A DNA stretch of 44,232 nucleotides, from positions 1 through 44,232 of the IMG/VR virus record IMGVR_UViG_3300015242_000009. One strand, 5' to 3'. This DNA comes from a virus. This document shows, in pieces, positions 386-41,936 of the stretch; the first letter of the stretch is position 1; every line of letters begins with the position of its first letter. Position numbers and translations under genes: made by a program. Below the pieces are notes generated by a model. It had not been told where the DNA came from. It was given only the letters and a program-made list of their open reading frames with translations, and ran no database searches.

Positions 386-402
386 TGGTAGAATGTGGAC
401 AT
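386..402 (+). promoter_or_regulatory. Extended -10 promoter, GTGGAC family
   Basis: TGGTAGAATGTGGACAT contains an extended -10 (TG-g-TAGAAT, -10 at 389-394). The same 17 bases occur at 4227-4243 upstream of the lipoprotein gene. It lies just upstream of the ATG at 404, so the 5' leader would be only a few bases long. No clear -35 box is seen. Confidence 0.6.
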
Positions 403-403
403 A

Positions 404-592
404 ATGAAACACCAAGGCCATCTCAAGCGAATCGAATATCTTCTCGGCAAGCGAAGGATATATAGCCACGTAAATGAGCTACGAGCGACGCTCCTAGACG
501 AGTTGCACGGCACGGCTCGCTACGGCCATGCGATAGATCAAGCGCGACTGATCGGTGCTATCGAACGCTACGACAGATCGCGTCAACGCTAG
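404..592 (+). CDS. Small basic hypothetical protein (62 aa), plus-strand insert
   Basis: A 62-residue basic protein, unrecognised (starts MKHQGHLKRIEYLLGKRR). It lies on the plus strand between the portal and the small membrane protein 589-837, both on the minus strand. It converges with the latter and overlaps it by four bases. The frame could also be read from GTG 395, but the promoter element at 386-402 covers that codon, so ATG 404 is preferred. There is no Shine-Dalgarno; transcription probably starts at about 401. The helical, Arg/Lys-rich sequence could bind nucleic acid, but no motif supports a function. Confidence 0.65.
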   Translation: MKHQGHLKRIEYLLGKRRIYSHVNELRATLLDELHGTARYGHAIDQARLIGAIERYDRSRQR

Positions 593-837
593 TCCGGTAC
601 CGCTCCTTCTCGCTCCAGCCGTAGCTTCTCGTAAGCCTGATCGTCGTCCAGGGCGATAGGAGCTACTGGCTGCACATCTTCCGCCAGCTTGCGCCCGTCT
701 AGGGCCACGGCCGTTTCGGGGCTCTGAATCCTTTGAACAAGTTCCTTGCGCTCCTGGGACCAGTTGTTGCGCTCCCAGGCGTGGAAGGCCAGCTCTACGA
801 CGCAGACGAGGAACAGGAAACCTAGGGCCAGCTCCAC
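589..837 (-). CDS. Small single-pass membrane protein (82 aa)
   Basis: An 82-residue protein starting at GTG 837, which overlaps the TAG stop of the beta-helix spike gene (TAGTG), so it is translationally coupled to that gene. Residues about 3-19 (LALGFLFLVCVVELAF) form one hydrophobic segment, followed by a charged helical stretch (ERNNWSQERKELVQRIQ) and an acidic C-terminus. The frame is open further upstream to 900, but that part overlaps the spike gene in another frame. The role is unknown. Its place after the spike and before the portal suggests a late gene; a holin/spanin-like or envelope role is possible but unproven. Confidence 0.7.
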   Translation of the reverse strand: MELALGFLFLVCVVELAFHAWERNNWSQERKELVQRIQSPETAVALDGRKLAEDVQPVAPIALDDDQAYEKLRLEREGAVPD

Positions 838-2891
838 TAGAGCACCGTATAGCTGGTCTTGAAAGCTTCGATCGTGCCTTCGACTTTTTTCCATTCCCAT
901 TTAATCCCAGCGCCGAGGACGAAGCAAAAGGACTGAGCCGTGATACCCGTATTGGCAGCGCTGATGACCGCTTCAGCGATGGTCGTTCCCCCGACGATGA
1001 TTTTCACCTTGGTCCGAGTCAAGGTTGCGCCTTCGAACATTCCGGTTACAATCGCCGCCTTATTGGCGTTCGCTTCAAATTCGGTCGCTTCCGCACGCGT
1101 AGTTAGGGCACCCGGTGCTTCAAGGGTCAACAACTTGCGCTGGACAGCGATTGCCAGCTTCGGTTCTGATACCGCTTCGGCTTTGATCTTTCCCGTCGAT
1201 ACCGCTTCGGTTTTCAGCTTGCCTTCTGCGACCGCTTCACCTTTGAGGTTGGCTTCTTCGATAACACCAGTGCCAACCGTCGGATTAGGATAGGTGCCGG
1301 TTAGCGAGCCCCCAGCCGCACCGGAGGGCTGAGAGATGCTCCAGCCACCGACTTGGACCCACTTACCCGTGATGGTCTTCCAGTAGAAGGTCCCGGTACT
1401 GCGTTCGCCGTTGCCGGGGGCACTGAAGGCCGGTCCCTGGAACTGGTTACCGAGGGTCACGGCTCCTAGAGTCCCGCCAGAGCCATTTTCGATTTCCAGT
1501 GTAACGCGGCGCCCGCTGAAAGATTGTTCAGGATTGGCAACCGTGAAAGCTTCAGTTGTGGTCGCTTTAACCTGATAGATCTCAGCCAACCAGCCTTCAA
1601 GTTTTACTTCTGCGCCGAAGGTTGCGGAGCGGACGAGACCGCCACCGTCGTCTTTGCCACCCCGTGGTCGCAGGAGAGCTGTCGTGCCACTTCCGACATT
1701 GAAATCGGCGGTCGTGTTGCCGCTGCAGGTGTTAGGGCCAACCTGGGCGTTGAGGACGGCGCCAGAGGCAGTTATCCCATATTCAGCGTTGGAATCGCAG
1801 ATGTTACCCGTGACCTGTGAATGTTCCCCCGCCGTGTAGAGCCTGATCCCGGAGCCACCATTGGAGATGCAGCTATTGCCGCTGAGGGTGCATTCGTTGC
1901 CGTTGACTTGAATCCCGTTTTTAGCAGCTCCGGTGGTATTGACGTTACAGCGATTGCCAGTCACGATACACCCAGCCTGCGTTATGGAAATGCCGCAGTT
2001 ATTCCCTTCACAGGTATTGCCGACTACCGTCGCGGCGGCATTGACCTCGATCCCATGGCCGCCTTCGAATTCTCCAACGTTGTTTCCCTTGGAAGTATTG
2101 CCAAGGATGGAAGTGCCAAGAACAGCAGTGTTGACGAAGATGCCATTCTCGTAGTTGCCTTGGCATCGGTTGCCGCAGATCAGGCCGCTTTCATTGCCCG
2201 AGGCCGAAGAGACGCTGATCCCCCGGCCAGAGATCGCATTGGGTTTCGCTTTTGCGCCGTTGCCAATGCAATGGTTACCAAAGATTTCAGGCCCTTCAGT
2301 TCCCGTAGAGGCATAGCGAATCCCATGCGTGCCATTTGCATTGCAGCGGTTGCGCATAATCCGGGCACGCTGGCCTTTTTCGATGTTGATTCCGGCCTGG
2401 GCAAACGCCGTACCGTCTCCATTTTCGGTGCACCAGTTGCGGTCGATAAAGACGTCGTCGGCGAGAGACTGAATTCCGGCGCCAGTCGCGCCCGACACCT
2501 TGCAACGAAAGACTTCTGCCGAAGAAGCAGCTTCTGCGATCAGGATGCCGCGTTTACCGGTGACCCGGGCACCCAATTGTTCGCACTTGGAGCTTTCCCC
2601 GGCCAGTTCAATGGCAGTTTCCTGGGCAGATTCGACAATCGAAGCATTTCTGCTCGCCCCAAACAATGTCACGCCGGCTGGAATCACCAGCTTTTTGGAG
2701 ACTTTGTAGGTACCGGGAGGAAGATAAACCGAAGCCTGGACAGGTTCGGCAGCAGCGAACGCTTCTTCAAAGGCTTTTACGTTGACGGCTTCTGTCGCTG
2801 AGGTTGCACCACCGAAGTAGCCCACATTGTAGGCGGCGACCATTTTTTCTTCGAGGCCTCCGATGCTGGGGGGATTCCGAAGGGTGCTCAT
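837..2891 (-). CDS. Tail spike/fibre with right-handed beta-helix (684 aa)
   Basis: Probable receptor-binding tail spike. Residues about 15-90 resemble the pectate-lyase superfamily entry (VYLPPGTYKVSKKLVIPAGV). Residues about 90-395 contain many imperfect GNxCxxNxxxGI coils (for example GNTCEGNNCGISI, GNSCISNGGSGIRL), typical of NosD/pectate-lyase right-handed beta-helices. Residues about 415-520 form a beta-rich domain (RRVTLEIENGSGGTLG). Then come a GGSLTGTYPNPTVGTG linker and short repeats ending in LKTEAV/IKAEAV before a compact C-terminal domain. ATG 2891 follows the upstream stop by two bases. Capsule or wall-polysaccharide binding or cleavage is an inference; I cannot assign catalytic residues. 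A 326-residue open frame on the opposite strand (1821-2801) is a shadow of this repetitive gene. Confidence 0.85.
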   Translation of the reverse strand: MSTLRNPPSIGGLEEKMVAAYNVGYFGGATSATEAVNVKAFEEAFAAAEPVQASVYLPPGTYKVSKKLVIPAGVTLFGASRNASIVESAQETAIELAGESSKCEQLGARVTGKRGILIAEAASSAEVFRCKVSGATGAGIQSLADDVFIDRNWCTENGDGTAFAQAGINIEKGQRARIMRNRCNANGTHGIRYASTGTEGPEIFGNHCIGNGAKAKPNAISGRGISVSSASGNESGLICGNRCQGNYENGIFVNTAVLGTSILGNTSKGNNVGEFEGGHGIEVNAAATVVGNTCEGNNCGISITQAGCIVTGNRCNVNTTGAAKNGIQVNGNECTLSGNSCISNGGSGIRLYTAGEHSQVTGNICDSNAEYGITASGAVLNAQVGPNTCSGNTTADFNVGSGTTALLRPRGGKDDGGGLVRSATFGAEVKLEGWLAEIYQVKATTTEAFTVANPEQSFSGRRVTLEIENGSGGTLGAVTLGNQFQGPAFSAPGNGERSTGTFYWKTITGKWVQVGGWSISQPSGAAGGSLTGTYPNPTVGTGVIEEANLKGEAVAEGKLKTEAVSTGKIKAEAVSEPKLAIAVQRKLLTLEAPGALTTRAEATEFEANANKAAIVTGMFEGATLTRTKVKIIVGGTTIAEAVISAANTGITAQSFCFVLGAGIKWEWKKVEGTIEAFKTSYTVL

Positions 2892-2893
2892 GC

Positions 2894-4226: not shown

Positions 4227-4243
4227 TGGTAGAATGTGGACAT
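4227..4243 (+). promoter_or_regulatory. Extended -10 promoter, leaderless type, GTGGAC family
   Basis: TGGTAGAATGTGGACAT, identical to 386-402. TAGAAT (4230-4235) has a TGg extension and is followed by six bases (GTGGAC) and then the ATG at 4242. Initiation six or seven bases after the -10 would make the first base of ATG the transcript start. Confidence 0.65.
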
Positions 4244-4856
4244 GAACTCTAAGCGAGGAGGCCGGATGAGGATCAAGCCAGTCGTGTGGATCGCTGCTGT
4301 CATCGCTCTTGCAGCGTTGGTTACAGGTTGCGGTTCAGGCACCACCGAACACAAGCAGGCACGCAGGGAGGCAAGGGAAAACCAGGAACGCTTCGTGCCC
4401 TATATCCCCAAGAACGCCGTAGAGGCGGCTAACTACAACAAGGCTCAGGAACTCTACGACGATCCAGCAACGATCATCTGGTGCACGGCCTTCCCGCAGT
4501 CCAGCACGGAGCCGCTGATAACGGTGCCCGTCGCGGGGAAGCTGACAAGCTCAACCGTCTCTGCCTTCCGCAGCGAGGATGAAATAGACGGCGTAGCCCT
4601 AGAAGCCGAATCGGTCGATGGCCTCTACCACGGAACGCCGCCGCCATACCGCTACGGCTTCACGCCAGGCGGCCAATACGTCGATTTCTTCAACCTGCCG
4701 ACGCTCTGCACCACGCAGCCCTTGAAGTTCCAGCGCCAGTCGGTATCTGTCAGCGTCAATAGCGGCTTGAACAGGGCGACGGGAGAAGCTGAAGCAGCAC
4801 TCAAGAACGGGGACAAGAAGCAGGCGCAGGCTATCCTTGAGGGAGCGACAGGATGA
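4242..4856 (+). CDS. Phage-encoded lipoprotein (204 aa)
   Basis: Residues about 10-29 form a basic plus hydrophobic signal (RIKPVVWIAAVIALAALV) followed by the lipobox LVTGC, so signal peptidase II cleavage and lipid attachment to Cys are expected. The mature part is charged at first (HKQARREARENQERF), then mixed, with TIIWCTAFPQSS and LCTTQPLKF. A GTG at 4236 is in frame, but the promoter covers it, so ATG 4242 is chosen. It overlaps the following membrane-protein gene by ATGA. Phage lipoproteins made from their own promoter are often superinfection-exclusion factors or conversion genes. That role fits this lipoprotein but is an inference. Confidence 0.8.
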   Translation: MNSKRGGRMRIKPVVWIAAVIALAALVTGCGSGTTEHKQARREARENQERFVPYIPKNAVEAANYNKAQELYDDPATIIWCTAFPQSSTEPLITVPVAGKLTSSTVSAFRSEDEIDGVALEAESVDGLYHGTPPPYRYGFTPGGQYVDFFNLPTLCTTQPLKFQRQSVSVSVNSGLNRATGEAEAALKNGDKKQAQAILEGATG

Positions 4857-5307: not shown

Positions 5308-6900
5308 TCAACTGAACCGGCCCATCGGACCTACGGGTTCGGTGGGCGGTTTGGTGGACACTGGAGGCGCGACACCGGGGTTCCACTGTTCTGGTCTGCG
5401 CTGTGCTATGCTCAAAGCCTTAGGTCTACTCAACGGTCTGTGATTACACAGATATCTCAAACAATCCGGGCCGTGGTCTTCGCGCTTAACCACGTCGAAG
5501 GAGCCATCGTCTTTGGGTTTGAGCCGGTAGCGCCGTAGCTCGCGGAGGAAGCTTGAGCAGTTTTCCCCGATCAACAGCAGCGGGTCGGACTCCCCTTCCT
5601 TGTCTCGGTGCTCCAGGCGGCGCATGACCTCGAAGTCTCCGCCCTCTTTGTCGTTGTTCGCCTTGGCCGTGGGGATGCCGGCGCGGTAATAAGCCATTCT
5701 CACCGTGTCGGGGGTCATTTCATCGCTGTTCGGGTCCTTCCTTCCGGTCAACGAATGGTTGCGGGCAGAGGGGTCGATCAGCGTGCATACGGGGGTGGCG
5801 TAGCCCCAGGCGTTGCGCTTCTCCCGGATGTGCTGCGCGGCGTTCTCAGGGATCGTGGCTTTTTCAGTCAGGTACAGCTCGTCGTAGATCAAGAAGCGGT
5901 TTTCCGGATCGATGCCTGCAAAGAGAACCGCTGTCGTGTTGTAGCCAGGGTCGATGATCTCATGAAGCTCAAGGCGCTGCACGTGATCTTTGCCCGCGTC
6001 TGAGCGCAGCCACTCGGCGTTGACGCAATGCAAGTCCTTGTCGAACATCGGGTAGACAAGGCCCTCCATGTGGAGGAACTCCCCGTCTTCCATGGCCCGC
6101 CTGACGAGTTCCGGGAGGCCCGCCATTGCAAGATCGATCTCCTCGGGGGGAATTGCGGGATTATCCCGCACGGAGGCCCTGACAACGAGCATCTTCTCGT
6201 CCAGCCAGACATTCTTTTCGACTTCCGGCCCCTTCTGTTCTTCGAACTCATCGAAGGTCCAGCCAAGGCCCTTGAGCGGGGTGAAGGTGAAGATCTCATA
6301 GCCTCGCGACTCCATGAGCCGCATCTTGCACTCCTGGCGAATCGCCTGGCCCTTCTCGCCGTCTGGCTCCTCGTCGTAGTGGCAGAAGTCGCGCGTAACG
6401 CCGCCGAACTTGGAAACGTCCTGCTCGTAGGAGAGAATCTCCAAGAAGGAGCCGTTGCCGAAGCTCAACCGATGCTCGCGCTGGGACCACGCCGTTTCCC
6501 ACGAGCCGCCCTTGAATTCAAAGCTAGGGCACCAACGCAGCAAGGTCTCCACGATGGCTTGCAGGGGGAGGCCGAAGTCCGGGACTACGATGCGGCCGCG
6601 CACCGGAGGTTCCAGGCGCTTGAAGCGTTTCAGGTGATCCGGCACCGATTCTTTGTCGATGCATTGGATGATGTCGTCTATGCCGCCCCCCGCTGTCTTC
6701 CCTGAGCGGTTCCCGCCGAAGTAGCAGCGCAGCCGAGTCTTCGCTGCGTGGAAGGCATATTGCTTCGGATGCGGTTTGTAGCCCCAAAGCGGGTTGGCTT
6801 CAAGCGCCTGCGATATCTGAGCGATTTCCTGCTGGACGGCAGGATCGCTGAGAGCAGATGGATCGGTCGCTTCAATCCGTGGGGCTGTAGTCTGATTCAT
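5308..6900 (-). CDS. terL: Terminase large subunit (530 aa)
   Basis: Packaging ATPase/nuclease. Walker A GGNRSGKT at residues 62-69, Walker B-type CHYDEEP at about 173-179, and C-terminal RNase-H-like nuclease acidic positions around IIDPGYNTTAV (about 314) and LIDPSARN (about 373). The frame is open to 7074, but the upstream residues are not protein-like and overlap the plus-strand gene 6936-7103. The start is set at ATG 6900 (MNQTTAPR). There is no Shine-Dalgarno; the ATG sits next to a palindromic -10-like element at 6904-6917, so a very short leader is likely. Length is normal for TerL. The portal is separated from it by the spike operon and two plus-strand units. Confidence 0.95.
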   Translation of the reverse strand: MNQTTAPRIEATDPSALSDPAVQQEIAQISQALEANPLWGYKPHPKQYAFHAAKTRLRCYFGGNRSGKTAGGGIDDIIQCIDKESVPDHLKRFKRLEPPVRGRIVVPDFGLPLQAIVETLLRWCPSFEFKGGSWETAWSQREHRLSFGNGSFLEILSYEQDVSKFGGVTRDFCHYDEEPDGEKGQAIRQECKMRLMESRGYEIFTFTPLKGLGWTFDEFEEQKGPEVEKNVWLDEKMLVVRASVRDNPAIPPEEIDLAMAGLPELVRRAMEDGEFLHMEGLVYPMFDKDLHCVNAEWLRSDAGKDHVQRLELHEIIDPGYNTTAVLFAGIDPENRFLIYDELYLTEKATIPENAAQHIREKRNAWGYATPVCTLIDPSARNHSLTGRKDPNSDEMTPDTVRMAYYRAGIPTAKANNDKEGGDFEVMRRLEHRDKEGESDPLLLIGENCSSFLRELRRYRLKPKDDGSFDVVKREDHGPDCLRYLCNHRPLSRPKALSIAQRRPEQWNPGVAPPVSTKPPTEPVGPMGRFS

Positions 6901-6917
6901 GATATTATGTCCATAAT
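6900..6917. promoter_or_regulatory. Palindromic divergent promoter between terL and plus-strand operon
   Basis: ATTATG-TC-CATAAT at 6904-6917 is a perfect 6-2-6 inverted repeat. On the plus strand TGATATTAT gives an extended -10 (TATTAT 6903-6908) for the operon from 6936. On the minus strand the mirror CATAAT lies three bases before terL's ATG. The symmetric arrangement could also be an operator. Confidence 0.45.
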
Positions 6918-6935: not shown

Positions 6936-7103
6936 GTGGATCAAGAGTTGAAGGAGAAGATCCTTCGTCTCGTAGGTGAAGCTGAGGATCAACTAGACAA
7001 CATTCGGGGAGAACTACAAGTTGAAGATCTAGATCAAGCGGGCATGGCCGCTGATTACGCTGCTCAATACGCAAGCGAAGCTGCCGCCCTCATCCCCTCA
7101 TGA
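6936..7103 (+). CDS. Small acidic helical protein (55 aa)
   Basis: GTG 6936 has a good Shine-Dalgarno (GAAGGGAGAG). The protein is acidic and almost wholly helical (LKEKILRLVGEAEDQLDNIR, AADYAAQYASEAAAL). Its TGA overlaps the ATG of the next gene (ATGA), making a three-gene plus-strand operon to 7524. The function is not recognised. Its small acidic, coiled-coil-like character would suit a protein-binding inhibitor, but nothing in the sequence proves this. Confidence 0.7.
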   Translation: MDQELKEKILRLVGEAEDQLDNIRGELQVEDLDQAGMAADYAAQYASEAAALIPS

Positions 7104-9635: not shown

Positions 9636-9813
9636 TGGAGTCTCCTGCAAGGATTGCCGCAGCTACATGGGAGCGCGTATCGTAGTCTTGGAACAGAACG
9701 GCGAGGAGATCCTCTCGGTCGATCCTATAGCGGTCGCGTTCTTCTTCTGCAACCGTGCACTGCCTAGAGGATTCCGTCCAATGCTTACGAGCTGCCAGGT
9801 CTTCAGCATTCAT
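9583..9813 (-). CDS. Small charged protein (76 aa)
   Basis: ATG 9813 overlaps the stop of 9810-10151 (ATGA). Residues 1-55 are charged and helical (VAEEERDRYRIDREDLLAVL). The last 17 residues, which overlap the next gene, are Ser/Gln-rich and probably disordered. Unrecognised; maintained in a tight minus-strand operon of small genes. Confidence 0.6.
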   Translation of the reverse strand: MNAEDLAARKHWTESSRQCTVAEEERDRYRIDREDLLAVLFQDYDTRSHVAAAILAGDSNAKQIPSSRQTGSSQSG

Positions 9814-10151
9814 CTCTGAGCCTCGACTAGTCTGCGCTTCGCCTCACGGCGAGCTTCGGCCATCGTTGGCTGCGGGGTCCCTTTCAGAAGAGAGAAATCC
9901 CCACCGCGTCCCTCGTAGAGCTGCCGCGCCAGTTCCTCCACGTCCACGGCGTTCTCAGGGTCGCCTTCGGGGTTCTCCAGCTCTTCGCGGGCTTTCGTGT
10001 TCCGAATCTTCCTAGCCTTGGTCAAACCAAGCTTCACGCGAATGTAGTCGGAGGTATTGAGATTGGCTTCCTTGGCCTTGCGGTCGATCCGCTTCTTCTC
10101 GTAGACGACCACGGGGACCTTGAGAAGCTCGTTTCGAAGTGGCTTGGCCAT
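9810..10151 (-). CDS. Charged hypothetical protein with possible RHH-like segment (113 aa)
   Basis: The frame is open to 10244, but ATG 10151 (MAKPLRNELLKVPVV) overlaps the stop of the preceding mini-gene (TGATG), so this is taken as the start. The early part VVVYEKKRIDRKAKEANLNT followed by SDYIRVKLGL resembles the strand-helix-helix pattern of ribbon-helix-helix proteins (EANLNTSDYIR like the helix-2 region). The C-terminal half is acidic then basic. DNA binding is plausible but unproven. It is in one operon with the other RHH-like gene at 11036. Confidence 0.65.
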   Translation of the reverse strand: MAKPLRNELLKVPVVVYEKKRIDRKAKEANLNTSDYIRVKLGLTKARKIRNTKAREELENPEGDPENAVDVEELARQLYEGRGGDFSLLKGTPQPTMAEARREAKRRLVEAQR

Positions 10152-10261: not shown

Positions 10262-10270
10262 GCGGGGAGT

Positions 10271-10438
10271 CTAGCGCAACGTGTCCACAATTACGACCAG
10301 CTCCCAGAGACCGTCATCACGCTCACGCCACTCCCCGACGTTGCGAGACTTCCCGTTCTCATCCTCGGTCTCAATGAAACGGCCTCTCTTCGTTCCTGGG
10401 CCGGGTGGGTCGGAGCAGACAATGCGAAGCTCTTTCAC
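10271..10438 (-). CDS. Small hypothetical protein (55 aa)
   Basis: GTG 10438 overlaps the TGA of the previous gene (GTGA). The sequence begins VKELRIVCSDPPGPGTKRGR and is beta-rich and acidic towards the end (DDGLWELVVIVDTLR). It resembles small beta-sheet host-modifying proteins only in general look. Operon member, unrecognised. Confidence 0.6.
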   Translation of the reverse strand: MKELRIVCSDPPGPGTKRGRFIETEDENGKSRNVGEWRERDDGLWELVVIVDTLR

Positions 10439-10587
10439 TGGAGCTTCTCTTGCAGGTAGCGGCGTATGGCTCGTGCCTTGAGGATGGCGATGCGCTTTTC
10501 CTCTTCGCTCTGCCCCTTGCGGTTCTTGTTACGCCCCAGGGCTTCTTCTTGAATAAGCGCTTCTTCTAGAAGCTCTCTGGAGTTCAC
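10435..10587 (-). CDS. Small charged helical protein (50 aa)
   Basis: GTG 10587 overlaps the stop of the RHH-like gene (GTGA). The protein is helical and charged (SRELLEEALIQEEALG, EEEKRIAILKARAIRRYLQ). Its stop overlaps the next GTG. Second gene of the operon from 11036. Unrecognised. Confidence 0.6.
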   Translation of the reverse strand: MNSRELLEEALIQEEALGRNKNRKGQSEEEKRIAILKARAIRRYLQEKLQ

Positions 10588-11036
10588 GTCGTTCGGTAGG
10601 TCGTCGGATTGACGATCAAGGCGTTCTCAATCTCCCGTGGCTCGATCTTCTCAAGTGGCTTGCCTTCGCGCACGAGCTTCCAATCCTCTCCTGACTTACG
10701 TCTTGCCTTAATCCCAGACCAGCGTTTCTGCTTGTCGCGATGCAGTTCCGTGTTGCGCTCATAGAGAAAGCGAAGGAAGGTCTCGCGGGATTCCGGATCT
10801 ACTGCCGGTGGCTCAGCCTCTCCAGCGATCTCCGCCTCGATCTGTTTGTGCAGAGTCGCTGCCTCCTCCGGGGTGGGTACCACGTCCTCAGGTACCTCCG
10901 GGTCCGGTACCAATTCCAGGGCCGCTCGCTCCAGGTATTCGCCGAAAGCCAACCCTTGGTCCTTCGCGAAAGCTTCGATCCTTGCCTTGTTGGTACCAGT
11001 CGTCCTGAACTTGACCTGCTTCTCTTGGTTATCCAT
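10584..11036 (-). CDS. Ribbon-helix-helix-like putative regulator (150 aa)
   Basis: The first about 45 residues fit an RHH/Arc-MetJ-type DNA-binding unit: a strand (KQVKFRTTGTNKARIEAFAK), then two helices ending EYLERAALELV. The rest is an acidic linker with VPDPEVPEDVVPTPEE and a charged C-terminal domain (RWSGIKARRKSGEDWKLV). ATG 11036 is chosen. The open frame runs to 11141, but the region between contains clustered GGTACC palindromes that look like operators. It heads the operon down to 9269 and diverges from the plus-strand gene 11095-11232, so it may regulate both. Confidence 0.65.
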   Translation of the reverse strand: MDNQEKQVKFRTTGTNKARIEAFAKDQGLAFGEYLERAALELVPDPEVPEDVVPTPEEAATLHKQIEAEIAGEAEPPAVDPESRETFLRFLYERNTELHRDKQKRWSGIKARRKSGEDWKLVREGKPLEKIEPREIENALIVNPTTYRTT

Positions 11037-11072
11037 GGTACCAGCGTACCAGGTACCAGGTCTGTTGGTACC
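10876..11072. promoter_or_regulatory. Cluster of seven GGTACC palindromes
   Basis: GGTACC occurs at 10876, 10891, 10906, 10992, 11037, 11052 and 11067, with a variant CGTACC near 11045. The last three are 15 bases apart and straddle the start of the RHH-like gene; the first three are also 15 apart. Regular 15-base spacing of a six-base palindrome is what an array of operator half-sites would show. Those inside the gene encode Val-Pro repeats, so protein constraint may explain part of it. Confidence 0.5.
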
Positions 11073-11094
11073 ACCCGTTATTGGTTCTGGGCTT

Positions 11095-12043: not shown

Positions 12044-12196
12044 TCAAAGCGCTTCAGAAAGGCGTTTGAGAAGAGGCCACGCGATTCTGGTAGCCCGGAC
12101 TTGCGCTCGGTTGACCTCAATCAGCCTATTCCGCTCCCAGCGCAAGGAACGGCATTCGCGCAGTAGCTTCGCGCGTCTTTCTCTCTCCTCACTCAT
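12044..12196 (-). CDS. Small Arg-rich helical protein (50 aa)
   Basis: ATG 12196 lies seven bases after a TAGGAT -10 box (12209-12204) with a TGg extension, so the transcript is probably leaderless. The protein is Arg/Glu-rich and helical (EERERRAKLLRECRSLRWER, then NRLIEVNRAQVRATRIAW). Divergent from the plus-strand operon starting at 12291. Unrecognised. Confidence 0.65.
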   Translation of the reverse strand: MSEERERRAKLLRECRSLRWERNRLIEVNRAQVRATRIAWPLLKRLSEAL

Positions 12197-12203
12197 AGCC
12201 TCA

Positions 12204-12209
12204 ATCCTA
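12204..12209 (-). promoter_or_regulatory. Leaderless-type -10 box (TGgTAGGAT)
   Basis: Minus-strand TGGTAGGAT, then seven bases, then ATG 12196. Same design as the promoters at 14917, 14737, 22652 and 24205. Confidence 0.6.
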
Positions 12210-12228
12210 CCAGCAAACCGCTCTGTGT

Positions 12229-12257
12229 TTGCTTTTCCTTGGTCTAGGGTCTACAGT
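12229..12257 (+). promoter_or_regulatory. Sigma70-type promoter for plus-strand operon
   Basis: TTGCTT (12229-12234), 17-base spacer, TACAGT (12252-12257). It is followed by a leader with GGAGG before ATG 12291. Confidence 0.5.
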
Positions 12258-14577: not shown

Positions 14578-14729
14578 GCGTCCACTGCCAATTGCAATGC
14601 GAGGAGGTACGTCCCCCACGCACCGTCCAACTCATCGCCTATAGCTGAGTGGAACACAGGCCACTCCCAACTGGCGTCAACGAGCCAGCGCTTACGTTCT
14701 ACCCAAGGTGGAACCGATAGATCTCTCAT
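14574..14729 (-). CDS. Small hypothetical protein (51 aa)
   Basis: ATG 14729 lies seven bases after a TAGGAT -10 box (14742-14737), so translation is probably from a leaderless transcript. Trp-rich sequence (VPPWVERKRWLVDASWEW, then PVFHSAIGDELDGAWGTYL). Stop overlaps the ATG of the putative TerS gene. Unrecognised. Confidence 0.65.
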   Translation of the reverse strand: MRDLSVPPWVERKRWLVDASWEWPVFHSAIGDELDGAWGTYLLALQLAVDA

Positions 14730-14736
14730 GGCCACG

Positions 14737-14742
14737 ATCCTA
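14737..14742 (-). promoter_or_regulatory. Leaderless-type -10 box (TAGGAT)
   Basis: TAGGAT, CGTGGCC, ATG. Its first three bases are the TAG stop codon of the upstream gene 14740-14910. Confidence 0.6.
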
Positions 14743-14910
14743 TCTCAAACTTTCCCTTTCCCAAACTTTCCTCGACATGATTAGTAAAAGCAACTCGATA
14801 TGCTCAGCCTCGGTTAGTTTACGGACCCTGGGAGTTGCAGATTTCAGCCTTAGCGGGGGGATGGCTGCCGCTCGGGCAAGGTCGCCAATGATGGACCATG
14901 AGGTTTTCAT
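14740..14910 (-). CDS. Small hypothetical protein (56 aa)
   Basis: ATG 14910 lies six bases after TAGGAT (14922-14917), leaderless type. Basic middle (PPLRLKSATPRVRKLTEAEH) and helical end (IELLLLIMSRKVWERESLR). The stop codon TAG doubles as the start of the next gene's -10 box. Divergent from the plus-strand pair 14932-15371. Unrecognised. Confidence 0.6.
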   Translation of the reverse strand: MKTSWSIIGDLARAAAIPPLRLKSATPRVRKLTEAEHIELLLLIMSRKVWERESLR

Positions 14911-14916
14911 ACCACG

Positions 14917-14922
14917 ATCCTA
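14917..14922 (-). promoter_or_regulatory. Leaderless-type -10 box (TAGGAT) with possible -35
   Basis: TAGGAT, CGTGGT, ATG. A TTGCCT lies 18 bases upstream on the minus strand and could be a -35. The same TTGCCT-18 pattern is seen for the promoter at 22686. Confidence 0.6.
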
Positions 14923-21026: not shown

Positions 21027-21437
21027 TCAGGCCTCCACGGGGCGGCCGGTGGCTCGCACGGTTTGCTTCAGCGAGTCAATTTGACCGACGCTCAGGCCAA
21101 AGCCGGCCTCCCCGTCAATCAATTCCGCGATCTGGTCAAGAGCCACGGTATCGGTCATCGTGGCCCGGAAAGCGTCCGAGGGTTCATAGTGCTTTTGCCA
21201 AGCTCCACGTTTCTGTTCACCGCCAATGACTTCAAGGGCGCCAGCTTTCGCCAGTTCCACGACGTGGTAGCTGATTGAGCTGAGCGACCGTCCTAGTTGG
21301 TCAGAAGCCGCCTTGGCGGTCAGGGCGTCCCCGTCTTCCTTTGCGGCTAGTTCCTCAGCCAGAATCATGATCTGGCGGCGTAGTGGAGTACGACAAGCGT
21401 CTACGAGAGCCATTGCGTTCTTCTCGGACCTAGGCAT
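21027..21437 (-). CDS. ArsR-like winged-helix transcription regulator (136 aa)
   Basis: Residues about 10-85 fit an ArsR/HTH_20 winged helix: LVDACRTPLRRQIMILAEEL, then the recognition region RSLSSISYHVVELAKAGALE, and a wing (VIGGEQKRGAWQKHYEPS). The C-terminal part is a helical tail, perhaps for dimerisation (DQIAELIDGEAGFGLSVGQI). There is no metal-binding CVC motif, so it may sense another signal or none. The start overlaps the previous gene (ATGCCTAG). It is the second gene after the strong promoter at 21677-21650 and is the best candidate for a phage switch regulator. Confidence 0.8.
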   Translation of the reverse strand: MPRSEKNAMALVDACRTPLRRQIMILAEELAAKEDGDALTAKAASDQLGRSLSSISYHVVELAKAGALEVIGGEQKRGAWQKHYEPSDAFRATMTDTVALDQIAELIDGEAGFGLSVGQIDSLKQTVRATGRPVEA

Positions 21438-22441: not shown

Positions 22442-22645
22442 TTAAGCAACGGTCTCTCCCTCTCTAATCTCGCCTCTTTCGAGGTTCTCATTGGCTCTGT
22501 CGCATGCGAGCAGGAAGCACTCCTGCGCGGTTACGAGGAGGCTCTCTAGTCGCTTGTCGTCTCGGCTCAGACGCGTGAGGTACTTGCTTTCCTTGGCAAG
22601 TGTCTCGGAATGCCGCGAGAGCCTTTCCATTCTCAGTCGATTCAT
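22442..22645 (-). CDS. Small charged helical protein (67 aa)
   Basis: ATG 22645 lies six bases after TAGGTT (22657-22652), with a TGc extension, so the transcript is probably leaderless. Helical and charged (RMERLSRHSETLAKESKYLT, then RANENLERGEIREGETVA), with two Cys in ECFLLACDRA. First gene of the SSB operon. Divergent from 22699-23370. Unrecognised. Confidence 0.65.
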   Translation of the reverse strand: MNRLRMERLSRHSETLAKESKYLTRLSRDDKRLESLLVTAQECFLLACDRANENLERGEIREGETVA

Positions 22646-22651
22646 GGACAC

Positions 22652-22657
22652 AACCTA
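22652..22657 (-). promoter_or_regulatory. Leaderless-type -10 box (TGcTAGGTT)
   Basis: TAGGTT, GTGTCC, ATG 22645. Part of a divergent pair with the plus-strand box at 22686-22691. Confidence 0.55.
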
Positions 22658-22685: not shown

Positions 22686-22691
22686 TAGGGT
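22686..22691 (+). promoter_or_regulatory. Leaderless-type -10 box (TAGGGT) with possible -35
   Basis: TAGGGT, CGAGGAC (seven bases), ATG 22699. A TTGCCT lies 18 bases upstream, the same arrangement as at 14917-14922. Confidence 0.55.
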
Positions 22692-22698
22692 CGAGGAC

Positions 22699-23370
22699 AT
22701 GGCGTGTAAGGGAGAGCGTTTAAGCAAAGCGCAGCGCAAGAAGCTGAGCCGCTTGGCGATTGAGCGATACAAGCGCGTCAGGGGCGAAGAAGCGCAGGGA
22801 GAGCCCACCCATAAGCGCTGCAACAAGTGCGGAGAGCTAAAGACGCTTGAAGACTTTTATTGGTTCAAGCGCAAGCTAGCCTCTGGGGAAGTTACGCGCT
22901 ACCCCCAGTCCCGTTGCAAGGAATGCGATGTTGAAGTTCGCAAACGCAATTGGGAGCGGCTTCGTGCCGAAGGAGTAGACCTAGCGGCCTTAAAGCGACG
23001 CTACGAAGCCAACGAAGACCAAAGCAGGCGGCGCCAGCGTTGGCGGGAAAACCAGGCGATTCTGCGGCGCAAGCAGGGGAGAAGGGCAAAGGAGAGGCCT
23101 GCGGCTCTCCCGAGGAGAGGGGAAACTCTCCCACTAAAGCCCATAGTCGAATTGCTTGAATCAAAGCTGGATCTAGACGTTGAAAACGCTAATCAGTTCG
23201 CCAGCAAGGGACTCGCTGCTTTGGGAGAACAAAGCGGCATTTCCCAGCGTCGCATCTGGGGGATCTTGCACGGAGAGTACAAACGCGTATCTCTCTCGAC
23301 GGTGGATAAACTCTTGCATGGGCTCGGCCTCCAGCACATGCTGCCGATTCTCTATCCAGAAGAAGTCTAG
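22699..23370 (+). CDS. Zinc-finger plus helix-turn-helix protein (223 aa)
   Basis: Start set at ATG 22699 by the -10 box; the open frame from 22600 overlaps the divergent gene. Residues about 35-75 have the CNKCG...CKEC treble-clef pattern (RCNKCGELKTLEDFYWFKRK, then RCKECDVEVRKRNWERLR) common beside phage HNH proteins. A basic linker follows, then a C-terminal HTH-like domain (GLAALGEQSGISQRRIWGIL, then SLSTVDKLLHGLGL) ending in ILYPEEV, seen in actinophage DNA-binding proteins. No HNH catalytic set is visible. Likely a DNA-binding regulator or nuclease-associated protein. Confidence 0.7.
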   Translation: MACKGERLSKAQRKKLSRLAIERYKRVRGEEAQGEPTHKRCNKCGELKTLEDFYWFKRKLASGEVTRYPQSRCKECDVEVRKRNWERLRAEGVDLAALKRRYEANEDQSRRRQRWRENQAILRRKQGRRAKERPAALPRRGETLPLKPIVELLESKLDLDVENANQFASKGLAALGEQSGISQRRIWGILHGEYKRVSLSTVDKLLHGLGLQHMLPILYPEEV

Positions 23371-23493: not shown

Positions 23494-23799
23494 TCAAGGC
23501 CACTCTGAAGGTTCCAGCCAACGCAGCTTCCCTCTTGGGGGCCACCACGCAAGAATGGGCTCCCAGCCCGCTTTTTCCGCCAAAGAGAGCAACGCTTCGC
23601 GCTTCTTTGGACCGAAGTTGTTAAAGGGACCGAACTTCTCATCGTCAGCTTTGACCTCTATCGCAAGGGTCGTTCCTGCCATGCCGGCGACGAGGTCGAT
23701 ACAGCCCAGCGATCCCGCTGCACGGACCACAGCCCAGCCTTCACCCTCAAGCTCTTCTCGAACTTGACGCTCTCGCTTTATCCCGAGCGCTTGGCTCAC
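23494..23799 (-). CDS. Hjc-like Holliday-junction resolvase/PD-(D/E)xK nuclease (101 aa)
   Basis: Start set at GTG 23799, which overlaps the TGA of the 20-residue peptide (GTGA). The core fits Hjc-type nucleases: REELEGEGWAVVRAAGS (E and the RxxGS segment), IDLVAGMAGTTLAIEVKADD (D, then ExK), then a helix and KLRWL. Length suits the family. Likely resolves branched DNA before packaging. Last gene of the operon from 24198, with a holin-like protein and a membrane peptide, an unusual setting. The 123 bases between it and 23370 include a GC-rich imperfect hairpin (about 23381-23408). Confidence 0.75.
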   Translation of the reverse strand: MSQALGIKRERQVREELEGEGWAVVRAAGSLGCIDLVAGMAGTTLAIEVKADDEKFGPFNNFGPKKREALLSLAEKAGWEPILAWWPPRGKLRWLEPSEWP

Positions 23800-23858
23800 C
23801 GCACAAGCAAGACTACGATCACGACGATGAGCAGGATGACAAGCAACGTCGTTATCAC
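23796..23858 (-). CDS. Membrane micro-peptide (20 aa)
   Basis: GTG 23858 to TGA 23796, encoding 20 residues, nearly all Val/Leu/Ile (ITTLLVILLIVVIVVLLVR): one transmembrane helix. GTGA overlaps with both neighbours support translation. Possible holin accessory or antiholin, or only a coupling frame. Confidence 0.5.
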   Translation of the reverse strand: MITTLLVILLIVVIVVLLVR

Positions 23859-24055
23859 TTGCGAAGACCCCTACCAGCCTGGTTTCTGGCCACGCCGATC
23901 CCGCCACCACCCGCACTCGTAATGCCCCAGGCAGCTAGAGCCTGGAAGATCGTGATATCGCCATTCAAGTAGCCGATCAGGGCGAGGATGCCACCGCCGA
24001 GAGCCGTAACCGTCCCGACGGGAAGATCGTCAAGCAGTTTCGTCAGTTGATTCAT
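23855..24055 (-). CDS. Holin-like small membrane protein (66 aa)
   Basis: ATG 24055 overlaps the previous stop (TGATG). Two hydrophobic segments (TVTALGGGILALIGYLNG and IFQALAAWGITSAGGGGIGV) with a short polar loop, then a basic end (ARNQAGRGLRK). This matches small actinophage holin-like proteins in size and layout. It is the second gene of a leaderless operon directly downstream of the endolysin gene. Its start is coupled to 24055-24198. Confidence 0.6.
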   Translation of the reverse strand: MNQLTKLLDDLPVGTVTALGGGILALIGYLNGDITIFQALAAWGITSAGGGGIGVARNQAGRGLRK

Positions 24056-24198
24056 CAGTCCCCCGTCCTATCCTTGTGAAGTTTGTAGCCGGCGACAAGA
24101 GCTTGAAGCTCCAAGGCCATCCGCATGGTCCGAAGCGGATTAGAAGCGCCTTCCAACCAGCTCCGATCAGCGTTGAGTTCCTGCATGTTTGTGTTCAT
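24055..24198 (-). CDS. Small hypothetical protein (47 aa)
   Basis: ATG 24198 lies six bases after TAGGAT (24210-24205). Helical, polar (MQELNADRSWLEGASNPLRT, then MALELQALVAGYKLHKDR). The stop overlaps the holin-like ATG (TGATG). Unrecognised. Confidence 0.65.
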   Translation of the reverse strand: MNTNMQELNADRSWLEGASNPLRTMRMALELQALVAGYKLHKDRTGD

Positions 24199-24204
24199 AG
24201 CCGC

Positions 24205-24210
24205 ATCCTA
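24205..24210 (-). promoter_or_regulatory. Leaderless-type -10 box (TAGGAT)
   Basis: TAGGAT, GCGGCT, ATG 24198. The first three bases are the TAG stop codon of the endolysin gene 24208-25056, as at 14740. Confidence 0.6.
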
Positions 24211-32842: not shown

Positions 32843-32859
32843 CTACTTCCTTTCAAGAT

Positions 32860-32876
32860 GATAATGTGGACATATG
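32860..32876 (+). promoter_or_regulatory. Extended -10 promoter, GTGGAC family
   Basis: GATAATGTGGACATATG, identical over 17 bases to 39608-39624. TGATAAT is an extended -10; GTGGAC follows it. The final ATG is the start codon at 32874. Confidence 0.6.
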
Positions 32877-36070: not shown

Positions 36071-36090
36071 TCCTTGGTAGTGTGGGCATG
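36071..36090 (+). promoter_or_regulatory. Degenerate GTGGAC-family promoter
   Basis: TTGGTAGTGTGGGCATG ends in the start codon at 36088. It is the motif TTTGGTAGAATGTGGACATG with two bases missing and one change (GGGC for GGAC). Confidence 0.45.
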
Positions 36091-36555
36091 GTGATCGGGC
36101 GGGTGGTCTTCTTCTGCGTATCTCTCTGCCTGTTTCTGGGGATGCTTCTCCTCTTCGCAGGACCGGGAGAGACAAGCTGCCGCCTGCGCTGTCTCAATCA
36201 GAAGTTCGCCCTGCTGCGCGCCTCGCACCTGAACGAACGCCTGGAAGCCGTAGAACGGCGCCTGAGCGCGCGTGACGCGCTGATCGCTCAACTGGAAGCA
36301 CGTACGCGGAGAGAGGAAGAAGCGCTAGCGAACTTCCGAAGCTGCTTTGGGGAAGTGCCGATCACGCGCTATGGGGAAGACTTCGGACCGTCTGGCTATG
36401 TCTTCAACTTGCAGAGGGCAGAAGGACCTGAAACATTCTTCACGACGGCGCTTGACGCAAGCTACCCGAAAGACCCGGTAGGAGTATGGCTCTGGGTCAA
36501 TAGCTGCAATGCGGAACGGATCACGCCGAAAAGCTCGCTCTTGCCTACGCCGTAA
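36088..36555 (+). CDS. Signal-anchored protein (155 aa), plus-strand insert
   Basis: ATG 36088 at the leaderless position; an in-frame ATG at 36082 lies in the promoter. Residues about 5-27 (RVVFFCVSLCLFLGMLLLFA) are a membrane/signal segment. Then a coiled coil (HLNERLEAVERRLSARDALI, then AQLEARTRREEEALANF) and a C-terminal globular part with FGEVPITRYGEDFGPSGY and two Cys. Probably envelope-anchored, with an external domain. It lies among structural genes but on the opposite strand and ends within the 3' end of 36545-38131. Host conversion or exclusion is a possible role. Confidence 0.75.
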   Translation: MVIGRVVFFCVSLCLFLGMLLLFAGPGETSCRLRCLNQKFALLRASHLNERLEAVERRLSARDALIAQLEARTRREEEALANFRSCFGEVPITRYGEDFGPSGYVFNLQRAEGPETFFTTALDASYPKDPVGVWLWVNSCNAERITPKSSLLPTP

Positions 36556-38131: not shown

Positions 38132-38731
38132 CTAGAGGTAGCTTCCAGGCCAACCCGTGCGGACCGTCAGGCGTGGGGACTGCAGATCGCGTTGGAGTTC
38201 GGCGGCGACCATTTCCCCGAAGTCCGTCTGCGTGGCTTCTTTCAGTTCACGGGCTACGTCTATTTCATCGTTCTCTTTCAAGCAATCGACCACAGCTAAA
38301 TCCACGATCAAGCCATGCCATTCGGAGGGCATCGCTGGTTCCAGTTTGGCCGTCAGGACTTCTGGTTTTTTGGCATAGCGAACCTGGATGTTTTCGCTCG
38401 TGCTTACGGGGAAAGTCCGCAGCGTTAGGTTGTCCAGCCACCACCACAACGGTTCTCCCGTTTCTTCAAGGTTGGGGAAGCGTTCGACCAGCCATTGCCT
38501 CGTCTGCCCGTAAAGAGGGCGTTCCGTCGTCGTATCGACAACCGAGAGAACATCGCGAAGATCTTTGATTTCGAAGGGAGCGGTGCCTTCTTTCGTCCCT
38601 TCTCGCCAAGGCCATACGTACTTCGCTTCAAGCTTCTGGTAAGCGCGCTGGACGAAGGTTTCGATCCGGCTCGCAGCCAGATATTGATACCCCCGTTCAT
38701 TGACCTCTTGGACAAGCTGTTCGAAATTCAC
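38132..38731 (-). CDS. Head-tail adaptor, gp4-like (199 aa)
   Basis: GTG 38731 (weak Shine-Dalgarno) and end adjoining the next gene. Starts with helices (FEQLVQEVNERGYQYLAASR). Then KYVWPWREGTKEGTAPF, LWWWLDNLTLRTFPVSTSEN and IQVRYAKKPEVLTAKL, followed by helices (VVDCLKENDEIDVARELKEA). WPWR...TLRTFPxST...IxVRY is characteristic of the phage adaptor family (P22 gp4-like/DUF6682-like). Connects portal to tail nozzle. Confidence 0.8.
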   Translation of the reverse strand: MNFEQLVQEVNERGYQYLAASRIETFVQRAYQKLEAKYVWPWREGTKEGTAPFEIKDLRDVLSVVDTTTERPLYGQTRQWLVERFPNLEETGEPLWWWLDNLTLRTFPVSTSENIQVRYAKKPEVLTAKLEPAMPSEWHGLIVDLAVVDCLKENDEIDVARELKEATQTDFGEMVAAELQRDLQSPRLTVRTGWPGSYL

Positions 38732-39271: not shown

Positions 39272-39592
39272 TCAATAGCCGTAGGCAACTACCTGGACTT
39301 TGACTTTTTCCACATTTTTGGTCGAACCAATTTCTTTCTGCGTTTTGTAGTTAAAGAGTTTGAGTAGTTCTTTTTCGGTGTTGTAAACGGCCCAACCAAG
39401 TTCAACTGTTTCCGATTCAGAGCCCTGGAGGATCGCGCAATGCGCCCACTCCACTCGGCTCAAACCCAGTTCTTTAGCCGTCAGGGACTCCCCACCTTCA
39501 AGGTAGGAGCTGTCGAACTGGACTTCTGCAACTACTTGCCTGCGCGCACCGGGCACGCGAGGCTTATCGAGGATCGTGGTTGTAAGTGCCAA
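39272..39592 (-). CDS. Capsid-associated/decoration-type protein (106 aa)
   Basis: The open frame begins in non-coding bases at 39649; TTG 39592 has GGAAGGA upstream and is taken as the start. Sequence VVAEVQFDSSYLEGGESLTA, KELGLSRVEWAH and an end KVKVQVVAYGY match the small beta-sandwich proteins often found just after the major capsid gene (the FDSSYxxGGExLTxxxLGL pattern). Probably capsid decoration or cement. Divergent from the plus-strand gene at 39622. Confidence 0.75.
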   Translation of the reverse strand: MALTTTILDKPRVPGARRQVVAEVQFDSSYLEGGESLTAKELGLSRVEWAHCAILQGSESETVELGWAVYNTEKELLKLFNYKTQKEIGSTKNVEKVKVQVVAYGY

Positions 39593-39607
39593 GAGAGTTC
39601 CTTCCGT

Positions 39608-39624
39608 GATAATGTGGACATATG
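39608..39624 (+). promoter_or_regulatory. Extended -10 promoter, GTGGAC family
   Basis: GATAATGTGGACATATG, identical to 32860-32876 (TGATAAT extended -10). It ends with the start codon at 39622. Confidence 0.6.
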
Positions 39625-39816
39625 GAGAGCACAACGGCCCTTGAAGCATTGCGTTGCCAGTTGATCGGGATGCTGCTCGAAATGGCAGGGCAGACGCGGG
39701 ACAACGGAGTTCTTCACGGACGCATCGAAGTCTTGATGAACGACCCCTACGGCCGCCAAGAAGTCAGAGATGCGTGCCACGATCTCCTGGCCGAGCTAGC
39801 CCGCCCCCAGCGTTAG
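39622..39816 (+). CDS. Small helical protein (64 aa), plus-strand insert
   Basis: ATG 39622 directly after the promoter; no Shine-Dalgarno. Helical (ESTTALEALRCQLIGMLLEM, then DPYGRQEVRDACHDLLAELA). Sits between the capsid-associated and capsid genes, convergent with the capsid gene. Unrecognised. Confidence 0.7.
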   Translation: MESTTALEALRCQLIGMLLEMAGQTRDNGVLHGRIEVLMNDPYGRQEVRDACHDLLAELARPQR

Positions 39817-39834
39817 CCAGAGGCGGGCGAATAG

Positions 39835-41067
39835 CTACGGGGTTGTGAGTTCGGTGAGCCGACCTATCGAATTGCGCCGGTTGGTCGCAAATTGCAAGTA
39901 GCCCTCGATCGCGCCTACGACATACGTAGAGCCGATTTTGTACATGAGGAGCCCCTTGCCACCATACTTCTCGGTGGCCCAGTAGGGAGCGCTGTCACGG
40001 AGGATGAACACGTGGTTCTTGACGGACATATAGAAATCTTTGTCCGGACAGTCGTTGTGGCCCTGAACCTTCAGTGAGCCGACCATGATCGACTCTCCGT
40101 CCCCGGTGTTCTGAGCCTGCGTGTCGGGGAAGCGGACCTGGGTGTAGCTTTCGTTTTCCAGAGCCTGGATCTGCGCCAGCGCCGTGAAGCACCAATCCGG
40201 ATTTTCCCCGATCTGGCGGAGTTTACGGCGCAGTTTGATCACCTTCTGACGGGTAATCGGCGTGGATTTGGCTTCTTCCACGACCCCGGCCCAACGTGGC
40301 ACCGTTTCCGGTTTCAGGCCGCCCAGTTCGGTTGTTTCCGAGGAGAGGTTGCCCCAGCCGTTGTTCTCGTAGCTGGTTTCCCCTGAACGCGAGTTGGCGA
40401 GAGAAACGTAGTCGGTTTCCGCCGTTTTGATTTTGGTCGCGATTTCCAGCGTCGGCGTTCCTTCCGATTCTTTGAAGGCGAGGATTTCTTTATCCGCAGC
40501 CTTCAGCGCCTCTTCTGTTTTGGAACCGATATCGATTACCTGACCGACAGGCAGGTAGCCGTTGCGAATCGCCTGGTAGCCGAATCCTGTTTTGAGCAGG
40601 TTGATCGTTTTCGATTCGGTTTCTTCTTTGGCGCACTGGGCGATCAGCGCGGTGCCGTCCCCGAACAGGGTGCGGGTGAGCTGCTTGCGCATGTCGCTGA
40701 GCTTGCCTTCGACTTCCATGTCGAGCCAGCGCATGATCGACTTGGCCGCGTCTTTGGTGCGCTCGATCGCGGCCGTATCCATTTCGATCTGGCCCCACTG
40801 ACGCTTGTATTCCCATTTGGCCCGCGTGACCTGTTGCGGGGCAGCGGCGTTCAGAGCTGCCGAGCCCGTTTTGGGCACCCAGGTGATACCGCCGCCGCGT
40901 CCGGTCTGGACGGGGGTTAGGGCTTCAAGACCGATCTGGATTTCTGGTTTTAGCTTTAAGACATCTTCCAGCATCGGGTCTTTTGAATAGAACTGCTTCT
41001 CGAAGTTCTCTTGAGTCCAGACCTGCTTCGCTCCGGATTCCGCGACTTCGAATGTCGAGACTGACAT
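39835..41067 (-). CDS. Major capsid protein (410 aa)
   Basis: ATG 41067 with a strong AGAAGGAGCC Shine-Dalgarno. Starts with helical SGAKQVWTQENFEKQFYSKD; LEALTPVQTGRGGGITWVPK and WGQIEMDTAAIERTKDAAKS fit the P-domain and N-arm region of the podoviral N4/P22-type HK97-fold capsid proteins. The C-terminal part contains a C-x-G-like receptor of beta strands (VFILRDSAPYWATEKYGGKG, GSTYVVGAIEGYLQFATNRR). Position (portal, scaffold, MCP) is diagnostic. No proteolysis motif seen. Confidence 0.9.
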   Translation of the reverse strand: MSVSTFEVAESGAKQVWTQENFEKQFYSKDPMLEDVLKLKPEIQIGLEALTPVQTGRGGGITWVPKTGSAALNAAAPQQVTRAKWEYKRQWGQIEMDTAAIERTKDAAKSIMRWLDMEVEGKLSDMRKQLTRTLFGDGTALIAQCAKEETESKTINLLKTGFGYQAIRNGYLPVGQVIDIGSKTEEALKAADKEILAFKESEGTPTLEIATKIKTAETDYVSLANSRSGETSYENNGWGNLSSETTELGGLKPETVPRWAGVVEEAKSTPITRQKVIKLRRKLRQIGENPDWCFTALAQIQALENESYTQVRFPDTQAQNTGDGESIMVGSLKVQGHNDCPDKDFYMSVKNHVFILRDSAPYWATEKYGGKGLLMYKIGSTYVVGAIEGYLQFATNRRNSIGRLTELTTP

Positions 41068-41094
41068 TACAAAGGCTCCTTCTGGATTCGGGAG

Positions 41095-41838
41095 CTATTC
41101 AAGCGACGGAGCCGCTTCCTCAGCGATTTCGTCATAGAGCTTGAATCGCTCCTCTTGGTTCGTAGGATCAATCGCTTTCCGCGCAGGTGAGCCTTGACTT
41201 ATCCGCCTCGGACCGCCTTTTTTGCTGGCAATCCATTCGTCAACGAAACCCTTAAAGGTCTCGCCGATCTCTGGAATCGCCTGCGGCCCATGCACTTCCG
41301 CGTAGGAGGAGATTGCTTTGAGGGTCTTGCCCTCAAACTCGAATCCGTTGCCGAAAGACTTCTCAAGCGCTTCAATGCCCTCGGCGATTTCATCTGTCGC
41401 CTGAGCGCTTTGCTGCGCCTGGACCTCTTCCTGCTGCTGGTGAGTCAGAGCGCCTTCGACATTCTCAAGGCGAGCACGTAGCTCATCCTCAGGGTCTAGG
41501 AACTCTTCTGGCTCGCCTTCGTCGAATTCGTAGCCGAACTCCTGTTGGAGCCAAGCGTCTCGTGCGGCGGGGTCATTCTGAATCGCCGTAATGAACTCAC
41601 GGTATTCCTGCGCTTCTTGGCGCTCCTGCGCGAGACCTTGAGTCTTCTGGGTGAAGCCGGATCGAAGCTCGTTGTACTTCTGCTCGAACCAGTCTTTCCC
41701 AGCGTCCTCCGGGATATCTTTTGCAGGATCGAAGTCCGTAAAGGACTCCTGAGCCTCTGTCGCTTGTCCGGTATCCGGGGCGTCGTCGGTTTCGGCGGCT
41801 TGTCCTAGATCAGGGGCCTCTGTTGCTTCGTCTGACAT
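41095..41838 (-). CDS. Scaffold protein (247 aa)
   Basis: ATG 41838 with AAAGG upstream. Acidic, helical and low in aromatic content (DFDPAKDIPEDAGKDWFEQK, QKTQGLAQERQEAQEYREFI, ENVEGALTHQQQEEVQAQQS), typical of phage assembly scaffolds. The C-terminus has a basic patch (KKGGPRRISQGSPARKAID) that could bind the capsid protein, followed by an acidic end. Located between portal and MCP on the same strand, as expected. Confidence 0.85.
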   Translation of the reverse strand: MSDEATEAPDLGQAAETDDAPDTGQATEAQESFTDFDPAKDIPEDAGKDWFEQKYNELRSGFTQKTQGLAQERQEAQEYREFITAIQNDPAARDAWLQQEFGYEFDEGEPEEFLDPEDELRARLENVEGALTHQQQEEVQAQQSAQATDEIAEGIEALEKSFGNGFEFEGKTLKAISSYAEVHGPQAIPEIGETFKGFVDEWIASKKGGPRRISQGSPARKAIDPTNQEERFKLYDEIAEEAAPSLE

Positions 41839-41913
41839 TTACTGCCTTTCATGGAGCGGGGGCCATAGCCTTGTCCGCGTATTGAACGGGGCTTCCGAAG
41901 AAGCTTGTCCGCT

Positions 41914-41936
41914 GATAAGATTGCGTCCACGTGGAC
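41914..41936 (+). promoter_or_regulatory. Extended -10 with GTCCACGTGGAC palindrome
   Basis: TGATAAGAT (-10 TAAGAT, 41916-41921) is followed by the perfect 12-base palindrome GTCCACGTGGAC (41925-41936), which contains the GTG start codon at 41931. The GTGGAC element is shared with the other plus-strand promoters. Confidence 0.55.

Follow-up and report, generated by a model that had tools for sequence, protein, structure and literature searches.

A dispersed 14-bp dyad on extended -10 promoters as a putative operator of interchangeable accessory genes in a phage genus

Comparison of a phage record of 44,232 bp (IMGVR_UViG_3300015242_000009, the whole of which is termed the window here) with its close relatives, all of one genus of soil phages, revealed that the hexamer GTGGAC forms the centre of a palindromic 14-bp dyad, ATTRTGGACAYAAT. 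The dyad covers the -10/+1 region in promoters that have an extended -10 and lack a -35. In the seven phages compared, the promoter and the adjoining core gene are fixed while the gene behind them changes, and we consider that the dyads are probably the operators of a putative regulator, itself probably encoded by the phages, of interchangeable accessory genes. An initial annotation of the window had described one class of leaderless-type promoters with a GTGGAC spacer and had raised a regulator site at GTGGAC as another possibility. The eleven promoter sites that it listed are real, all reading as described to within 1-2 bases, and its suggestion of a regulator site fits best of its readings. 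The single promoter class did not stand, since the dyad that contains GTGGAC is also found on promoters of genes with a Shine-Dalgarno sequence and is missing from many leaderless ones.

The window has an exact terminal repeat of 77 bp, and the record is therefore probably complete. No near-identical DNA was found among annotated phages for its first 25 kb, and the relatives of its terminase among annotated phages are distant only, the largest numbers coming from Pseudomonas and Arthrobacter phages. The close set comprised six relatives of 35-45 kb each, which together with the window make up the seven phages, as well as fragments of the genus. Dyads were counted in 383 kb of the genus and in two outgroups of more distant phages (198 and 439 kb, ~636 kb in total) defined by terminase identities of about 40-48% and 29-40%, respectively. 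Genes were called from codon usage alone, with promoter information left unused. A host search of 84,980 species genomes with the terminase and an ArsR-like protein found no relative; tRNA genes, sought as a host clue, are absent from the window, and none could be assigned with confidence in its six close relatives.

A total of 20 copies of the dyad matching at all 12 arm positions and seven matching at 11 were identified in the genus set, counts that lean upward since the consensus was refined on the same genomes. Such copies were absent from shuffled genus sequences and from both outgroups, and searches with other centres gave no copy at 12 of 12. Similarly, TANNNTGTGGACAT had 14 matches in the genus (0 expected) versus none in the 636 kb of outgroup sequence. 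The window has exactly four copies of the string AATGTGGACAT (0.0 expected), each at one of the gene starts at 389, 4230, 32861 and 39609, and these four sites had been noticed before the consensus was refined. Conservation stops sharply at the edges of the dyad. The dyad is a dispersed, lineage-specific and non-random palindrome, some of whose right-arm bases are accounted for by the constraint of an ATG. Exact-motif scans of IMG/VR returned 42 stretches, 11 of which are on contigs of the genus and nearly all already in our set; the other 31 were rejected as family members, as they share no protein with the genus and look like chance matches. The GA/TC centre occurs in both orientations and copies with unlike arms, in which A faces C, are common, which together argue for recognition as DNA by a dimeric protein over RNA pairing. 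An RNA hairpin was ruled out by the frequency of those A-facing-C combinations.

The sequence TGnTANNNT is in register at 20 of 31 distinct dyad sites, compared to 0.9% expected with random flanks, and the dyad sites lack a -35, so that the TGn extension and the scarcity of -35 elements reported initially hold for these sites. The -10 box occupies two registers 2 bp apart relative to the dyad (TGGTAGAATGTGGAC and TGATAATGTGGAC), and the distance of the dyad from the start codon also varies, contrary to the proposal that GTGGAC is a spacer element. Leadered promoters preserve the right arm of the dyad, as seen at 6904 (before the gene at 6936) in the window and at 38212, 39299 and 34774 in the relatives G004, G007 and G002, respectively, each of which is followed by a purine-rich ribosome site. 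Some dyad genes are leaderless and others have a leader and a Shine-Dalgarno. The dyad and the leaderless start are, as judged from sequence, separable features because leadered genes carry the dyad and several leaderless promoters (22686, 12209, 14922 and 24210) lack it. These observations bear on the alternative that GTGGAC serves host RNA polymerase as an optimal discriminator and start region and that no regulator is involved. That the dyad and the -10 are nearly always together, and that similar spacers (GTGGCC, CGTGGCC) occur in other leaderless promoters, speak for it; however, the conservation reaches +5 and then stops, the element is a palindrome whose core is found in either orientation, the position of the -10 relative to it shifts by 2 bp, and many leaderless promoters of the same phages do without it, and we therefore regard this alternative as unlikely.

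The leaderless-type promoters themselves are a broader feature of the genus. TANNNT with a spacer of 6-8 bases was found at 35 of 229 operon-first starts in the seven phages versus 5.6 expected (p~1e-16, the expected rate being taken from spacers of 12-53), at 28 of 192 after similar upstream regions were dropped, and in the window alone at 4 of 33 operon-first genes versus 0.57 expected (p=0.003). Internal in-frame ATG and GTG codons had it in only 7 of 1555 cases (0.45%), in support of such promoters at gene starts. Genes within operons mainly have a purine-rich Shine-Dalgarno. Leaderless or near-leaderless starts at operon heads are thus well supported at the sequence level. The TANNNT signal is that known from actinobacterial leaderless promoters (PMC3160421), in which the first T lies about 12 bases before the start codon and the -35 is dispensable (PMC3160421, PMC3898074). 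The phage promoters resemble these in box position, in needing no -35 and in their location at operon heads, and differ in that the actinobacterial promoters have no conserved palindrome over +1, which here is on a subset of promoters, including those of leadered genes (PMC3160421, PMC3898074).

On the minus strand of the window, leaderless-type promoters without the dyad are TAGGAT-TGAGGCT-ATG 12196 (12194-12209), TAGGAT-CGTGGT-ATG 14910 (14908-14922) and TAGGAT-GCGGCT-ATG 24198 (24196-24210), the last before a gene found in six of the seven phages, and TAGGAT-CGTGGCC-ATG 14729 (14727-14742) has a TGGCCA core only. Minus-strand spacers are thus CGTGGCC, CGTGGT, GCGGCT, TGAGGCT or, at 22657, GTGTCC, and the plus-strand promoter at 22686 has CGAGGAC; the GTGGAC spacer is confined to the plus-strand accessory set. 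Two side observations concern these sites. An inverted repeat, AGCAAAC(8)GTTTGCT, lies directly upstream of the 12209 promoter (12212-12233, minus strand); it also occurs in G002, is decayed in G009, and is possibly a second operator. The sequence TAGGATCGTGGCCATG at 14727-14742 (minus strand) is kept in G002, G007, G008 and G009 before proteins with differing starts, and three of the five proteins in this set have a WEWP motif in common.

The dyad sites of the window illustrate the variety of starts. At 386-405 (plus strand), TGG and the -10 box TAGAAT (389-394) are combined with the dyad AATGTGGACATAAT (392-405, 11 of 12) before an accessory gene of 62 residues (404-592) that has no homologue in the six relatives and a predicted leader of 3 bases. 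The plus-strand site at 4227-4246 shares TGGTAGAATGTGGACAT (17 bases) with it, having TGG, TAGAAT (4230-4235) and the dyad AATGTGGACATGAA (4233-4246, 9 of 12), and precedes a lipoprotein-like accessory gene of 196 residues with a good lipoprotein signal (4266-4856, plus strand). That gene likely starts at ATG 4266 and would be leadered, with a transcript from near 4242, because this ATG sits just behind AGGAGG. The claim that these sites have no Shine-Dalgarno is correct for 404, 32874 and 39622 and probably incorrect for the 4230 site; a Shine-Dalgarno is also present at 6936. Between terL (5308-6900, minus strand) and an accessory gene of 55 residues (6936-7103, plus strand), the site at 6900-6917 (plus strand) has TGA, the -10 box TATTAT (6903-6908) and a perfect dyad, ATTATGTCCATAAT (6904-6917). 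Two further plus-strand sites share TGATAATGTGGACATATG (18 bases) and the dyad AATGTGGACATATG (9 of 12): 32859-32876, with TGA, TAATGT (32862-32867) and ATG 32874 of a 61-residue accessory gene, and 39607-39624, with TGA, TAATGT (39610-39615) and ATG 39622 of a 64-residue accessory gene. Their -10 had been read as GATAAT; TAATGT with its TGA, 6 bases from the ATG, is the better box.

The plus-strand site TAGTGT-GGGC-ATG 36088 (36078-36090) is degenerate on our reading as on the first; the product of its accessory gene (36088-36555) resembles an accessory protein of G002 when the two sequences are compared by reading. At 41913-41936 (plus strand), TGA, TAAGAT (41916-41921) and TGCGTCCAC precede GTG 41931 with a decayed dyad (8 of 12), and G002 has a dyad of 10 of 12 at the matching place. 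On the minus strand, a reversed-core dyad, GTTGTGTCCATGAA (9 of 12), accompanies the -10 box TAGGTT (22657-22652) and ATG 22645 (22641-22657), and this promoter is divergent from the gene at 22699, which has its own leaderless-type promoter TAGGGT-CGAGGAC-ATG 22699 (22686-23370 with the gene, plus strand). A partial dyad, ATTGTGGACACGTT (10278-10291, 10 of 12), lies 4 bp upstream of the -10 box TAGACT (10273-10268) and ATG 10261 (site 10268-10291, minus strand), at the head of the operon of a ribbon-helix-helix gene (9810-10151); it falls within the final codons of the preceding gene, and protein constraint may partly explain it. As a separate observation, the TAG stop of the gene at 10271-10438 (minus strand) forms the start of the TAGACT box for the next leaderless-type gene, an arrangement conserved in relatives.

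Late genes of these phages are on one strand with short genes inserted antisense between them, and the dyad promoters mostly head these inserts. Among the antisense insert heads of the late cluster in the seven phages, 17 of 28 lie within 60 bases of a dyad scoring 9 or more (about 21 of 28 by eye, allowing for start errors and weaker copies), compared to 11 of 46 early heads (p=0.003). Dyads are also scored at 13 of 34 late-strand heads, as divergent genes share these regions. The 29 dyad-headed proteins include one homologous pair and hence represent 28 families. At the terL slot, a dyad scoring 12 is present in all seven phages, with seven different genes behind it. In the c5|c6 slot, which lies between c5 and terL, the 40 bases upstream are 94% identical and the 70 bases downstream 22% identical, with the collapse falling exactly at the dyad. 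Such a collapse could suggest that the dyad is a site of recombination or insertion at which cargo genes are captured. However, a score of 9 was reached at only 2 of 25 cargo 3' ends versus 23 of 25 at 5' ends, and the promoter register is preserved; the lack of a 3' copy led us to reject this explanation, which we consider extremely unlikely. The location of most dyads between divergent genes, 10-30 bp from a late-gene start, together with the position of terL 10 nt from the dyad centre and its lack of an evident Shine-Dalgarno, could likewise point to a symmetric bidirectional promoter, each arm being part of a -10, that restarts late transcription past the antisense insert. Only 3 of 61 dyad sites have a usable -10 (A-11 and T-7) on each strand, so that two facing promoters do not account for the palindrome, and an opposite-strand TANNNT was found at none of 31 distinct sites. 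This rules the explanation out for most sites, and overall we judge it very unlikely.

In the preferred reading of the dyads as operators, the phage uses promoters with an extended -10 and no -35, from which transcription would begin at the start codon or only a few bases away, the usual situation in actinobacteria, so that many operon heads would be leaderless or nearly so. A subset of these promoters carries ATTRTGGACAYAAT, the proposed operator, at about -9 to +5, a fitting place for a repressor that excludes polymerase, and a dimeric regulator, probably encoded by the phage, would bind it and block RNA polymerase; we infer repression as the direction of control from this placement. Phages exchange the gene behind the switch and keep the switch and its core neighbour, which would leave newcomers under the same control. 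More tentatively, the sites could be genus-wide slots, about six to eight per genome with an identical promoter-operator, in which unrelated small genes, possibly directed against host defence, would come under one switch of a single phage regulator once swapped in. If this is true, phages could swap accessory genes without losing control of them, the switch persisting rather than the gene, and the dyad would offer a way to search for small accessory genes that lack recognisable homologues, possibly with roles in host takeover or anti-defence.

Three candidates for the regulator are core genes present in all seven phages. The product of 22699-23370 (plus strand), whose gene is divergent from a dyad promoter, has a zinc-ribbon/endonuclease-like N-terminus and an XRE-like helix-turn-helix C-terminus; the predicted structure of the latter part resembles XRE repressors (E 0.1, probability 1.00), a likeness that is suggestive only. 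The second, at 9810-10151, is a NikA-like ribbon-helix-helix protein; a partial dyad is present in its operon in most genomes, and its low-confidence predicted structure gave CopG/NikA-like matches at E about 1-2. The third, at 21027-21437, is the ArsR-like protein. None of the phage genes is linked to the dyad, which might instead be the operator of a host regulator exploited by the phage; we consider this quite unlikely, since the motif is limited to one phage genus among those tested.

Dispersed sites of several kinds are known in other phages. Cluster A mycobacteriophages have many dispersed, lineage-specific operators and stoperators, some of them in promoters; stoperators, however, are asymmetric, oriented with transcription, mostly off promoters and block elongation, whereas the dyads are palindromic and on promoters (PMC6550527, PMC9283540). 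The SAS and ESAS of cluster K are likewise short repeats at gene starts in one cluster, beside genes of different families, but the SAS is an asymmetric 13-bp sequence, GGGATAGGAGCCC, that contains a Shine-Dalgarno (AGGAG), lies 3-7 bp from the start and serves the non-structural half of the genome, whereas the dyad has another sequence without AGGAG, covers -10/+1 and is largely in the late cluster (PMC3203893, PMC12699233). Anti-CRISPR operons controlled by Aca are also small phage genes under a repressor acting on their own promoter; there the regulator gene is inside the operon, whereas a single motif would act at many separate slots in these phages (PMC9410906, PMC9410881).

In the actinobacterial phage phiC31, conserved inverted repeats dispersed at promoters are bound by the c repressor. 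The dyads resemble these, with the difference that the phiC31 repressor is proven and serves early genes, whereas here there are candidates only and the genes are mostly swapped accessory ones. Set against these systems, the promoters appear to be ordinary leaderless promoters of actinobacterial type and the dyad appears to work like a dispersed phage operator; the new part is the arrangement of the dyad over swapped genes in the late cluster.

Several other features of the window were observed. A perfect palindrome, GTCCACGTGGAC (41925-41936), lies across the GTG start at 41931. The portal gene spans the record ends (42353-44232 plus 1-380), with 561 residues seen compared to about 706 in relatives. 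This bacteriophage also encodes, at 23494-23916 (minus strand), a protein that matches Hjc, an archaeal family of Holliday junction resolvases (Pfam E 8e-14). Upstream of a further ribbon-helix-helix gene (10584-11036, minus strand) are clustered GGTACC repeats (11035-11076), and different repeats are upstream of its homologue in G007 and G008, as if each phage had its own fast-evolving autoregulation.
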